A stretch of 64,000 bases of DNA from Candidatus Eisenbacteria bacterium (lineage in GTDB: Bacteria > Eisenbacteria > RBG-16-71-46 > JAFGJU01), in contig JAPLKG010000014.1 of NCBI GenBank assembly GCA_026388185.1, positions 277,537 to 341,536 on the forward strand. The letters run 5' to 3'. Below the pieces are notes generated by a model that saw only the letters and a program-made list of their open reading frames with translations, was not told the DNA's origin and searched no databases. How positions within the stretch are numbered: the stretch's first letter is position 1; each line of letters begins with the position of its first letter. A program made the position numbers and the translations under genes. Positions 37,746-41,775 of the stretch are shown in pieces.

Positions 37746-38876
37746 ATGAAGCCTTTGAGAAAATCAGAACGGGAGCTTGTCGCCGGGGATCTTGGAGAAA
37801 TGGGACTCATCGAGAGGATTTTGTCAAAGACCGGCCGGTCGTTGGGACTCTCGAAGTCGGACGTAGGGCGCGTGATCGTCGGCCCCGGAGATGACGCCGC
37901 GGTAATAGAGTTCGGCGGGAGGACGCGCGTCGTTGTGACGACGGACGTCCTCGTGGAAGGCGTGCACTTCCGACTCGATTGGTCATATCCTGAGGCTCTT
38001 GGATTCAAGTCCGTGGCAGCGAACCTGAGTGACGTCGCTGCGATGGGAGGCCGTGCTGTAGGAATCGTGATTTCTCTTGGAATACCGCCGGCGGTTCCAG
38101 TGAAAGCCGTTGACAGGATGTATCGCGGCATATCCAAAGCGCTGTCGTTGTTCGGAGGAAATCTGCTTGGGGGAGACACGGTGCGCTCGAGTGCCATAAT
38201 CGTCTCGATATCTGCCATCGGCGTGCTTGTTGGCGAGAGGCCGCTACTCCGTTCTGGAGCGAGGCCTGGAGACAAGATATGTGTCACAGGTTCGCTGGGT
38301 CGTTCCGAGTTGGGGCTGATGTTGCTGAAGAGATACTTCAGACCGACTCGTCGGCCGAGAAAAATCTTGCTCGAGGCGTGGGCGGAGAGAACAGAACAGT
38401 ACTTCAGGAAAGGACTTCCTCCATCACTGCGGGAGGCGGGATGTGCATGCATCGCCAAACACCTCATGCCTTCTCCGCGGGTGAAGGAAGTGCGAGTGCT
38501 CTCAACTTTGGGTCCCTCTGCGATGATCGACATCAGCGATGGGCTGTCGGCAGATCTGATGCGGGTGGCAAGGGCGAGCGGGGTAGGACTGGTGCTGAAC
38601 GAAGCAGACATTCCCGTTGACAAAGACGCGATGGCCGTGGCGCAGGCTCTCAACGTTGCGCCATACAAGATAGCGCTTTCGAGCGGCGAGGAATACGAAG
38701 TTCTGTTCACCATTCCGCAAGCTAGAGTCGAACGGGCGGCAAGTGTTCTGGCGAGAAGGTGTGGAACTGCAATCGGAGTAATAGGAGAAATCACGGGATA
38801 CAGAGAGTCGATTCTTGTGGTCGGGAGTCGCGCTAGAAAGAGGGCCTTGGCAGAGACAGGCTTCAGACATTTCTAG
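37746..38876 (+). CDS. thiL: Thiamine-monophosphate kinase
   Basis: The 376-residue product has LGEMGLIERIL, GPGDDAAVIEF, VVTTDVLVEGVHFRLDW, GFKSVAANLSDVAAMGGRA and LLGGDTVRSSAIIVSISAIG, which are the metal and ATP-binding blocks of ThiL. It phosphorylates thiamine monophosphate to the diphosphate. IDISDGLSADLMRVARASG and LSSGEEYEVLF match the C-terminal domain. It is slightly longer than the usual 320-350. It ends the plus-strand block that starts at 33698; an inverted repeat (AACCCAA / TTGGGTT, 38979-39010) follows. Confidence 0.95.
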   Translation: MKPLRKSERELVAGDLGEMGLIERILSKTGRSLGLSKSDVGRVIVGPGDDAAVIEFGGRTRVVVTTDVLVEGVHFRLDWSYPEALGFKSVAANLSDVAAMGGRAVGIVISLGIPPAVPVKAVDRMYRGISKALSLFGGNLLGGDTVRSSAIIVSISAIGVLVGERPLLRSGARPGDKICVTGSLGRSELGLMLLKRYFRPTRRPRKILLEAWAERTEQYFRKGLPPSLREAGCACIAKHLMPSPRVKEVRVLSTLGPSAMIDISDGLSADLMRVARASGVGLVLNEADIPVDKDAMAVAQALNVAPYKIALSSGEEYEVLFTIPQARVERAASVLARRCGTAIGVIGEITGYRESILVVGSRARKRALAETGFRHF

Positions 38877-39028
38877 CTCGCTTTTCTCTGCGGCCCGATG
38901 CCTGGCGTTGTGGTGACTCCTGGTCGCTGATGCACTTCCAAGAAGTGTGTCGCCCTTGGAATCGGCCTCGACATCCCATCTAACCCAATTATATCGCAAC
39001 GAGTTGGGTTATCACGCGCACTTTTCTA

Positions 39029-39057
39029 TTGATTACGTTCTCACAGTGCTGTATAAT
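39029..39057 (+). promoter_or_regulatory. Near-consensus sigma70 promoter of the candidate RNA
   Basis: TTGATT (39029-39034), a 17-nt spacer, TATAAT (39052-39057). Transcription would start near 39064. Confidence 0.75.
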
Positions 39058-39063
39058 TAGTAC

Positions 39064-39202
39064 AAAGTTAAGTGTGAGATGGCACGTTAGGGTACGGTCG
39101 AAAACCTTCGGAAGTCTCTCTTTCGGAAGTCCCTGAGGTCTCGTACCTCATCCGCTCCGCTGGGGAGTTAATATGACCGAAGTGTCGTTTTCGACCTTTT
39201 TG
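39064..39202 (+). ncRNA. Candidate structured small RNA with its own promoter and terminator
   Basis: Between the promoter at 39029 and the next gene there is no coding frame, but the transcript folds strongly. GGTCGAAAAC (39096-39105) pairs perfectly with GTTTTCGACC (39187-39196), directly followed by five T. Inside it CTTCGG (39106-39111) pairs with CCGAAG (39177-39182). Two inner hairpins are GAGGT-ACCTC (39135-39149) and CTCC-GGAG near 39155-39167. The result is a closed multi-branch of about 100 nt ending as an intrinsic terminator. A local GTCG-TTTT-CGAC hairpin competes with the closing stem. It matches no RNA class I know. It could be a free sRNA or a leader of the gene at 39283. Confidence 0.55.
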
Positions 39203-39282
39203 TTTGCCCTTTTTTGACGCCGAGAAGGCCATGAAGTGACCGGGAAGAGGGGCCATGACAAGAAGGTGGAGGTGTTCAATTC

Positions 39283-39996
39283 ATGTTCAGATCATCGGTA
39301 ATGGTAATCGTTGGCGTTTGTCTGCTTTTCGGACAAGCTCTTGGCTGCGGGACTCAGCTTTGCTGGAACACGGTCGTGCCGCGGAACATGGTAGGTTTCG
39401 ATTTGAACGTAATCTCTACTGTCGACGGGCCTGACAAGTCGGGGCTGTATACCTACACGTACACGATTTACAGGCTCGACAACGGGTTGAAGCTCGACAA
39501 CGGAGCGTGGGTCCTTTACCGAGAGATCAGTCACATCTCTTTCTGGTTTCCCTGTGGGCCGGCCGCAGAGAGGAGCATAGTGAACGGCAAGTACGGCATC
39601 TCTGTTAGTTGCACGGACGCGGGGCAGTGTCCGACAATTGAAATGGGTGGAAGTCGTGGCATGGTTGAGCCCGTTATGAGCAGATCGTGCAGCGTGTTCT
39701 GGGGGTTCAAGCTTGACGCATGTGTCTGCCCCGACGACAGAATCTTCCTTCTTCCCAATCTCAATAAGATTTCTTTCCCCACCGACCCCGAGGATCCCCA
39801 CTGCACCATCACGTTCAAGAGTGGTAGCGCACCCGAGTGGGGCAAGTGGCTCGCGAAAGGCGGTGCCACACGGGGTGGGCTACACGATGGAATGGGTTGG
39901 GTCTACGATGCTGGCGACATCAAGGTTCCGACCTGCGTTCCCGCTGTTGACGTCGGAGACATGACGTGGGGTGCAATCAAGGCAACCTACCGCTAG
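39283..39996 (+). CDS. Cysteine-rich secreted protein with WG-x-IKA C-terminus
   Basis: The 237-residue product has a signal peptide (MFRSSVMVIVGVCLLFGQALG) with a cysteine right at the cleavage region (LGCG), and eight or more cysteines in the mature part (CSVFWGFKLDACVCPDD). The family is unknown to me. The chain ends VGDMTWGAIKATYR, very similar to the end of the unrelated beta-helix protein at 59002-60156 (TTWGKIKALFR). AGGTGGAGG lies about 10 nt before the ATG. It follows the candidate RNA by about 80 bp. Confidence 0.7.
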   Translation: MFRSSVMVIVGVCLLFGQALGCGTQLCWNTVVPRNMVGFDLNVISTVDGPDKSGLYTYTYTIYRLDNGLKLDNGAWVLYREISHISFWFPCGPAAERSIVNGKYGISVSCTDAGQCPTIEMGGSRGMVEPVMSRSCSVFWGFKLDACVCPDDRIFLLPNLNKISFPTDPEDPHCTITFKSGSAPEWGKWLAKGGATRGGLHDGMGWVYDAGDIKVPTCVPAVDVGDMTWGAIKATYR

Positions 39997-40119
39997 CGCC
40001 GGCCACGAACACATAGCCCGTCGTATACCCTCACGCGTTCAATTCCGTTTGACACAACTAGAATAGCGGATTAGCATCTCACCGCACGTTCTGTTCTGAA
40101 CCTTTCGCAGGAGGAGGAC

Positions 40120-41775
40120 ATGGAAGGAGAGCAAAGCCTAAGGGCCTTGTCTGACGAGTATTTTGACTTCTACGTTGAATCCTACCCCGAAATGGCCACG
40201 GTCGTGGGGCTTCACACCTTCGATGACAGGCTGACTCGCTACGATCGGGCCTCCATCGACAAGCAAGTGCGAGCATTCCGCGGATTCAAGAGGCGCGCCG
40301 AAGAGCTCTTGTCCGCCGGAGGGCTCTCCACAACCGCTTCGATAGATGCGAGACTCATCGCCAGCAACTGTGAGATTCAGGTCCTCGAGATCGAAAAGAT
40401 GATGAAACCCTGGGTCGATCCCACCCTCTACATCGAAATGAGCCTGTATGGGTTGTTCCTTCTCGTTTCCAGGGAAGTCGTCCCCGTCGAGAAGCGTGCC
40501 AACTCGGTGGCCGGAAGATTGAGAGAGTTCGCTCGCGTGCTGGTCGAAGCTAAGCAAAACCTGGAAAACCCGCCGTCCATTTTTACGAGGACGGCCCTCG
40601 GCATGCTCAAGGGCGCAGACGCTTTCGTGAAGGAAACCGTTCGTCACTTCGGCGACAGCTTGGCCGGAGCAAGAAGCGAGTTGGAATCAAGTTCAACAAT
40701 CTGCATCGAGGCCATGAGGGATTTCGAGACCTACCTGGAAAACGATCTCCTGCCAAGATCAAACGGGGATTTCGCCATAGGACGCGATCTCTTCGAGACC
40801 AAGCTAAGGGTGCAGCACATGTTGGACGTGGACACGAAGACACTCGAAAAGATGGGCCGCGCGCTCTTACTGGAGACCAAGGAGCAGATAGAACACCTCA
40901 GTAACGAGTTGCACCCCGGCAAGAACTGGAGAGACGTGATCGAGGCCCTCAAGGAGCACCATCCCGACGCCTCGATGCTGAGAAGTGAATACGAGGAGCA
41001 CATGAGGAAGGCAAGAGAGTTTGTTCTTGCCAAGGATCTTGTTCCTATCCCGGCTGGCGAAGAACTCACGGTCATTGACACTCCCTCTTTTGAACGAGGG
41101 ACCATCCCTTACGCTGCATACGTCAGCCCGGGGCCCTTCGATGAAAAGCAGGAAGGCCTCTTCTTTGTCACGCCCGTGGATACGAGCGCGCCGATTGAGG
41201 TACAGCGGGAACAGCTCAAGGGACACAGCTATGCTTCAATGGTGTTAACGGCCCTGCACGAAGGTTATCCGGGTCATCACTTGCAGTTCATTCATTCTAA
41301 CCGCGTCCCCACCAAGCTTCGGCATTTATGCGGGAATACTGTTTTTGCGGAAGGATGGGCGCTATATTGCGAAGAGCTCATGAAGGAAGCCGGCTTCTAC
41401 AGGAGCAGGGAGGTTGAGCTGTTTCAGTTGAAGGACATGCTTTGGAGGGCAGCGCGCGTGGTCGTAGATGTGGGGTTGCACACGAAAAGCATGAGCTTTG
41501 ATGAAGCGGTCGAGTTTCTGATCTCCGAAGCGTTGATAGAACGCCCCAATGCCGTTGCCGAAGTCAGGAGATATACCAACTCGCCATCTCAACCCTCGAG
41601 CTACGCCGTAGGAAAGGCCGAGGTTCTGGCTCTTCGAGACGGCGAGAAACAACGGCTCGGCCCTAACTTCAACTTATCCAGATTCCACGAAAAGCTTCTG
41701 AGCTCAGGCACCATTCCATTCAAGCTGGTCAAGGAGGAACTGGGAGCGAAAGACGAGAGCTCGCGAGAAAAGTGA
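40120..41775 (+). CDS. DUF885 family putative metallopeptidase
   Basis: The 551-residue product matches DUF885 over its length, with YFDFYVESYPEMATVVGLHTFDDRLTRYD at the start and the metal-binding segment LHEGYPGHHLQFIH (His380, Glu381) followed by FAEGWALYCEELMKEAGFY. The family resembles M32-type carboxypeptidases; substrates are mostly unknown. No signal peptide is seen, so it is probably cytoplasmic. CAGGAGGAGG precedes the ATG. It converges on cdaA with only 15 bp between stops. Confidence 0.9.
   Translation: MEGEQSLRALSDEYFDFYVESYPEMATVVGLHTFDDRLTRYDRASIDKQVRAFRGFKRRAEELLSAGGLSTTASIDARLIASNCEIQVLEIEKMMKPWVDPTLYIEMSLYGLFLLVSREVVPVEKRANSVAGRLREFARVLVEAKQNLENPPSIFTRTALGMLKGADAFVKETVRHFGDSLAGARSELESSSTICIEAMRDFETYLENDLLPRSNGDFAIGRDLFETKLRVQHMLDVDTKTLEKMGRALLLETKEQIEHLSNELHPGKNWRDVIEALKEHHPDASMLRSEYEEHMRKAREFVLAKDLVPIPAGEELTVIDTPSFERGTIPYAAYVSPGPFDEKQEGLFFVTPVDTSAPIEVQREQLKGHSYASMVLTALHEGYPGHHLQFIHSNRVPTKLRHLCGNTVFAEGWALYCEELMKEAGFYRSREVELFQLKDMLWRAARVVVDVGLHTKSMSFDEAVEFLISEALIERPNAVAEVRRYTNSPSQPSSYAVGKAEVLALRDGEKQRLGPNFNLSRFHEKLLSSGTIPFKLVKEELGAKDESSREK

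Follow-up and report, generated by a model that had tools for sequence, protein, structure and literature searches.

A conserved, unclassified structured RNA in one family of Candidatus Eisenbacteria, a candidate attenuation leader of a gene of no known family

The window analysed here, a 64,000-nucleotide stretch of DNA from a Candidatus Eisenbacteria bacterium, carries thiL, a predicted structured RNA, the gene of a 237-aa hypothetical protein and a DUF885 gene, in this order and all on the plus strand, with the RNA ending ~80 nt upstream of the hypothetical protein gene. The features of the locus are as follows.

37746-38876, plus strand: thiL, the 5' neighbour of the RNA
39029-39057, plus strand: sigma-70-type promoter, TTGATT-17-TATAAT, matching 10 of 12 consensus positions
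39064-39201, plus strand: predicted terminated transcript of ~135-140 nt, its start placed by inference ~7 nt past the -10 box
39071-39088, plus strand: hairpin P1, AGTGTGNGATGGCACNTT, near-invariant between both species
39089-39119, plus strand: hairpin P2, a candidate antiterminator, AGGG..AC..TCGAA-AACC-TTCGG..GT..CTCT, which overlaps the terminator's 5' strand
39096-39105, plus strand: 5' strand of the perfect 10-bp closing stem, GGTCGAAAAC
39106-39111, plus strand: 5' strand of the inner 6-bp stem, CTTCGG
39134-39139/39145-39150, plus strand: apical hairpin TGAGGT-ctcgt-ACCTCA inside the long stem, its sequence not conserved in the relative
39177-39182, plus strand: 3' strand of the inner stem, CCGAAG
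39187-39201, plus strand: 3' strand of the closing stem, GTTTTCGACC, with T5 (39197-39201), the intrinsic terminator
39283-39996, plus strand: gene of the 237-aa hypothetical protein, with a signal-peptide-like start and no known family, the proposed target of the leader
40120-41775, plus strand: DUF885 gene, 3' of the hypothetical protein gene

Judged from its sequence, the 237-aa protein is probably secreted; its sequence matches in the PDB are weak (best E 0.017), and structure prediction gave a pLDDT of 35 and no usable fold. Upstream of the DUF885 gene, a promoter-like site TTGACA-17-TAGCAT is present at 40049-40077, and a TTGACA-type site is kept there in all three genomes of the family (TTGACA-17-TAGGAT in the relatives, as read from the sequences). 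Because this promoter-like site of its own is conserved, the DUF885 gene looks independently transcribed.

An orthologue of the RNA is found, within the same gene order, in CP070702.1, a Candidatus Eisenbacteria genome from another genus of the same family. The near-consensus promoter that had been proposed from the window's letters alone (hereafter the sequence-only reading) is conserved in this relative as TTGATT-17-TATACT with identical spacing (L002 1596-1568); in shuffled sequence such promoter sites arise at a rate of 0.4 per 600 bp, both strands counted. When the intergenic region from thiL to the hypothetical protein gene was scanned in both genomes at a looser threshold for the sigma-70-type consensus, no further site matching at least 9 of 12 positions was found, and the sole such site before the secreted-protein gene precedes the terminator in each species. 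As far as the sigma-70-type consensus goes, the order of promoter, intrinsic terminator and gene without a promoter of its own is thus common to the two species. Note that an inverted repeat, AACCCAA-N15-TTGGGTT, lies immediately 5' of the promoter in the window (38984-39012) and was not seen in CP070702.1; it could be an operator or part of the end of the thiL transcript.

The RNA is predicted to fold into two units, a small hairpin at the 5' end and then a long imperfect one, with T5 immediately after the closing stem. The section 39097-39196 folds at -38.9 kcal/mol (z -4.3), a stability reached by none of 200 shuffles, and the 143-nt stretch holding the predicted transcript has a z of -2.4, with 2 of 200 shuffles reaching its energy. 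This last figure, taken from the window alone, would allow for a chance inverted repeat between genes, an explanation contradicted by the orthologue, in which promoter, stems and U-tract are conserved across genera, and which we regard as very improbable. The perfect 10-bp long-range stem, the inner 6-bp stem and the T5 tract of the sequence-only reading are all present and all kept in the relative, whose closing stem retains 10 of 10 pairs and whose terminator end, on L002, reads GTTTTCGGCC-TTTTT with an identical U-tract. Both of the hairpins that it had counted exist as well, but only one is a 5' hairpin (39071-39088), the other being the apical one inside the long stem.

The plus strand holds no open reading frame of at least 60 aa, so the earlier statement that no frame is open is right at that length, but two very short frames are present. 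The first, ATG GCA CGT TAG (MAR*) at 39079-39090, has MAL* as its equivalent in the relative and lacks a clear ribosome-binding site; we rejected it as a leader peptide, since no ribosome-binding site is convincing and a single substitution alters the residue. The second, of 14 codons from the ATG at 39173 (39173-39217), stands behind GGGGAG and overlaps the terminator; it was likewise rejected, as the frame is not conserved and the relative has no ATG there. We also observed that the frame of the hypothetical protein is open through the entire RNA in the relative (L002:693-1589, minus strand) and is closed ~8 codons before ATG 39283 in the window, and that the window RNA contains a direct repeat, TTCGGAAGTC, at 39107-39116 and 39122-39131, of which the relative is missing the second copy.

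We then compared the two orthologues at the level of sequence and structure. Over its first half the RNA hardly varies, and a 50-nt block is 88% identical, against merely 54-58% for the neighbouring proteins (54% for the hypothetical protein). An independent DNA match to CP070702.1 has an E of 4.5e-11, and the match of the RNA model has an E of 2e-30, the CP070702.1 sequence having helped to build that model. With the two sequences aligned, the terminator hairpin's consensus fold has a z of -3.6, with 2 of 1000 column shuffles as stable, and the hairpin together with its U-tract a z of -3.7, with 1 of 1000; for P1, RNAalifold gives a z of -4.1, and 7 of 1000 column shuffles are as stable. Shifting the stem partners against each other by 1-3 columns lowers pairing from 97% to 33-54%. 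Over both stems, and with two sequences only, three one-sided substitutions keep pairing via G-U, one breaks a pair and none is two-sided; the three two-sided changes reported by RNAalifold fall in the middle, where the alignment is poor, and this count leaves them out. Overall, the conservation of the element in CP070702.1 and a consensus fold that beats column shuffles bear out its reading as a structured RNA with its own promoter and terminator.

The distribution of the RNA is narrow. It occurs in 2 of 47 Eisenbacteria genomes, and the downstream gene in exactly those two; a scan of GTDB contigs found the hypothetical protein only in CP070702.1, the window's own genome possibly being outside that scan. 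In a third genus of the family (G001), the DUF885 gene lies 260 bp after thiL; the hypothetical protein was not found there, nor was the RNA, which scored at best 1.7 bits with filters off. No further copies of the RNA were found in its own genome, in viral contigs or among 385 genomes of a broader set; a match in G019 (E 0.2) covers only model positions 33-121, without 5' hairpin or U-tract, and was taken as chance. Because they are present or absent together, promoter, RNA and hypothetical protein gene behave as one unit; the co-occurrence of RNA and gene could simply reflect the common ancestry of adjacent loci.

A match to a known family was looked for as a refutation of the claim that the RNA is unclassified. 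Against Rfam (4227 families, riboswitches included), the window gave only a tRNA at gathering score, and the best scores in permissive scans of both orthologues were 18.1 bits (cut-off 40) and 11.9 bits (cut-off 45), leaving the claim intact. The RNA has a size and a rod-like fold roughly of the housekeeping class, 6S RNA (RF00013) in particular being of similar size and long rod-like shape, which might suggest a divergent copy of 6S or SRP RNA. However, the present RNA differs from 6S RNA by its 5' hairpin domain and its terminator and by its absence from nearly all relatives; the sole 6S match in the genome (C2:89659-89841) and the sole SRP RNA match (RF00169; C8:38895-38994) are located elsewhere, and the RNA is missing from 45 of 47 genomes of the phylum. 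We give this explanation next to no credence.

Conservation of the 5' domain, 39071-39120, extends to nearly every base, those of loops and linkers included. In both species, P2 has the shape UCGAR-AACC-UUCGG, its internal loop being GG/AA and its base AGNG/CUCU, and 11 of 11 of its pairs are possible in the window and 10 of 11 in the relative, one being lost. As P2 takes up the 5' strand of the terminator, the two are mutually exclusive, and this use of the strand would explain the near-invariance of 39071-39120. The competing local hairpin of the sequence-only reading is indeed predicted as an early or suboptimal fold in both species when either the growing transcript or only the 5' domain is folded. 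Its stability, however, does not exceed that of shuffles (z about -1.3, ~11% of column shuffles as stable, i.e. not above chance), and we therefore treat P2 as a candidate antiterminator. Since P2 is much less stable than the full terminator hairpin, any antitermination would depend on strong help. Note also a possible GAUG-CAUC loop contact (alignment columns 9-12 and 80-83), which involves four conserved bases only.

From this anatomy we infer transcription, termination, read-through, the role of P2 as antiterminator and any signal. RNA polymerase would start at the 39029-39057 promoter and, in the default state, be stopped by the long hairpin with its closing stem 39096-39105/39187-39196 together with T5, yielding an RNA of ~135-140 nt. 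The 5' domain, P1 plus P2, includes the 5' strand of the terminator stem, so that a P2 held by a ligand or a protein would block the terminator and the gene ~80 nt downstream would be transcribed. Since a strong terminator stands between the only good promoter-like site and this gene, its expression would need read-through, which is the layout of an attenuator. Sequence comparison argues for this layout through the conserved promoter, stems, U-tract and gene order, through the lack of another promoter-like site of similar quality and through the joint presence or absence of RNA and gene. Our leading explanation, to which we give even odds, is that the RNA serves the secreted-protein gene at 39283-39996 as a transcription-attenuation leader.

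Two other explanations were weighed against this one. In the main rival, the RNA would be a stand-alone small RNA of ~140 nt that acts in trans through base pairing or by binding protein, and the downstream gene would be expressed otherwise. It is indeed a complete promoter-to-terminator unit with a very strong terminator hairpin, and the sequence of its 5' half is conserved beyond what stem pairing needs; yet it always adjoins the same gene, both are missing together in G001, no other good promoter was found for the downstream gene, and the RNA is single-copy with a very narrow distribution. We regard this explanation as possible but doubtful. The remark of the sequence-only reading that the layout is also seen in switch-type leaders is favoured over a free-standing RNA, because the RNA co-occurs with the secreted-protein gene ~80 nt downstream, for which no other promoter was found. 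Alternatively, the RNA may be a plain 5' leader whose constitutive terminator merely dampens the gene via fixed read-through, with no switching. That P2 is not above chance and that no aptamer or family is recognisable would fit such a leader, but the near-invariance of 39071-39120 exceeds the needs of a fixed terminator, and we hold it to be distinctly unlikely.

If the RNA is an attenuation leader, several known systems offer comparison. ANTAR targets (eut, nasF, amiE) are protein-dependent antitermination leaders (PMC3369931, PMC3369936), and the present RNA resembles them in its two small 5' leader hairpins, of which the downstream one overlaps the intrinsic terminator's 5' strand. ANTAR-target RNA requires tandem hairpins with hexanucleotide loops that carry A1 and G4 (PMC3369931). 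Here the P1 loop reads GAGAUG or AGAUGG in the window and is a GAUG tetraloop (or CGAUGG) in the relative, and the P2 loop is AACC (hexaloop RAACCU). The window's genome encodes an ANTAR protein and a neighbouring gene:

L035:1468-2049, minus strand: REC-ANTAR response regulator
L035:2046-3125, minus strand: GAF/histidine-kinase-like gene beside REC-ANTAR

For this regulator, no convincing counterpart was found in the sister genera, the search for an ANTAR protein in CP070702.1 giving only a sub-threshold match inside a long hydantoinase-like frame. An ANTAR-target RNA was rejected, as the A1/G4 hexaloops are absent here and no convincing ANTAR protein was found in the relative.

The RAT leaders of BglG, SacY and LicT rely on a CAT_RBD antiterminator protein (PMC3369936). 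They share with the present RNA a local, internally looped hairpin that cannot coexist with the terminator, but the gene downstream here is not a recognisable sugar-uptake gene. A RAT/LicT-type leader was rejected, a CAT_RBD (PF03123) protein being found in none of the three family genomes with controls positive. In the HMP-PP (thiS motif) riboswitch, the aptamer is embedded in the terminator and acts by transcription termination (PMC6478431); likewise, conserved bases overlap the terminator stem here, and thiL adjoins the RNA. Unlike that riboswitch, the present RNA has no Rfam match and sits downstream of thiL, before a gene of no known family. A further-reaching proposal is that the near-invariant 49-nt double hairpin 39071-39119 senses a signal and controls the lineage-specific secreted protein, making the RNA a new terminator-overlapping regulatory class (riboswitch or protein-bound antiterminator) of one Eisenbacteria family; we advance it tentatively, as rather unlikely.

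To our knowledge, little functional work exists on the phylum Eisenbacteria, and a literature search combining its name with non-coding RNA or riboswitch found no paper on the phylum among the matches listed. The RNA is real, conserved and unclassified; attenuation leaders are a known kind and the present one is new. Such an element could thus be picked out by reading one sequence alone. For now the RNA counts among the very many orphan, lineage-specific leaders of bacteria; if it is a true switch, it would provide a way into the regulation of a protein that belongs to no known family.
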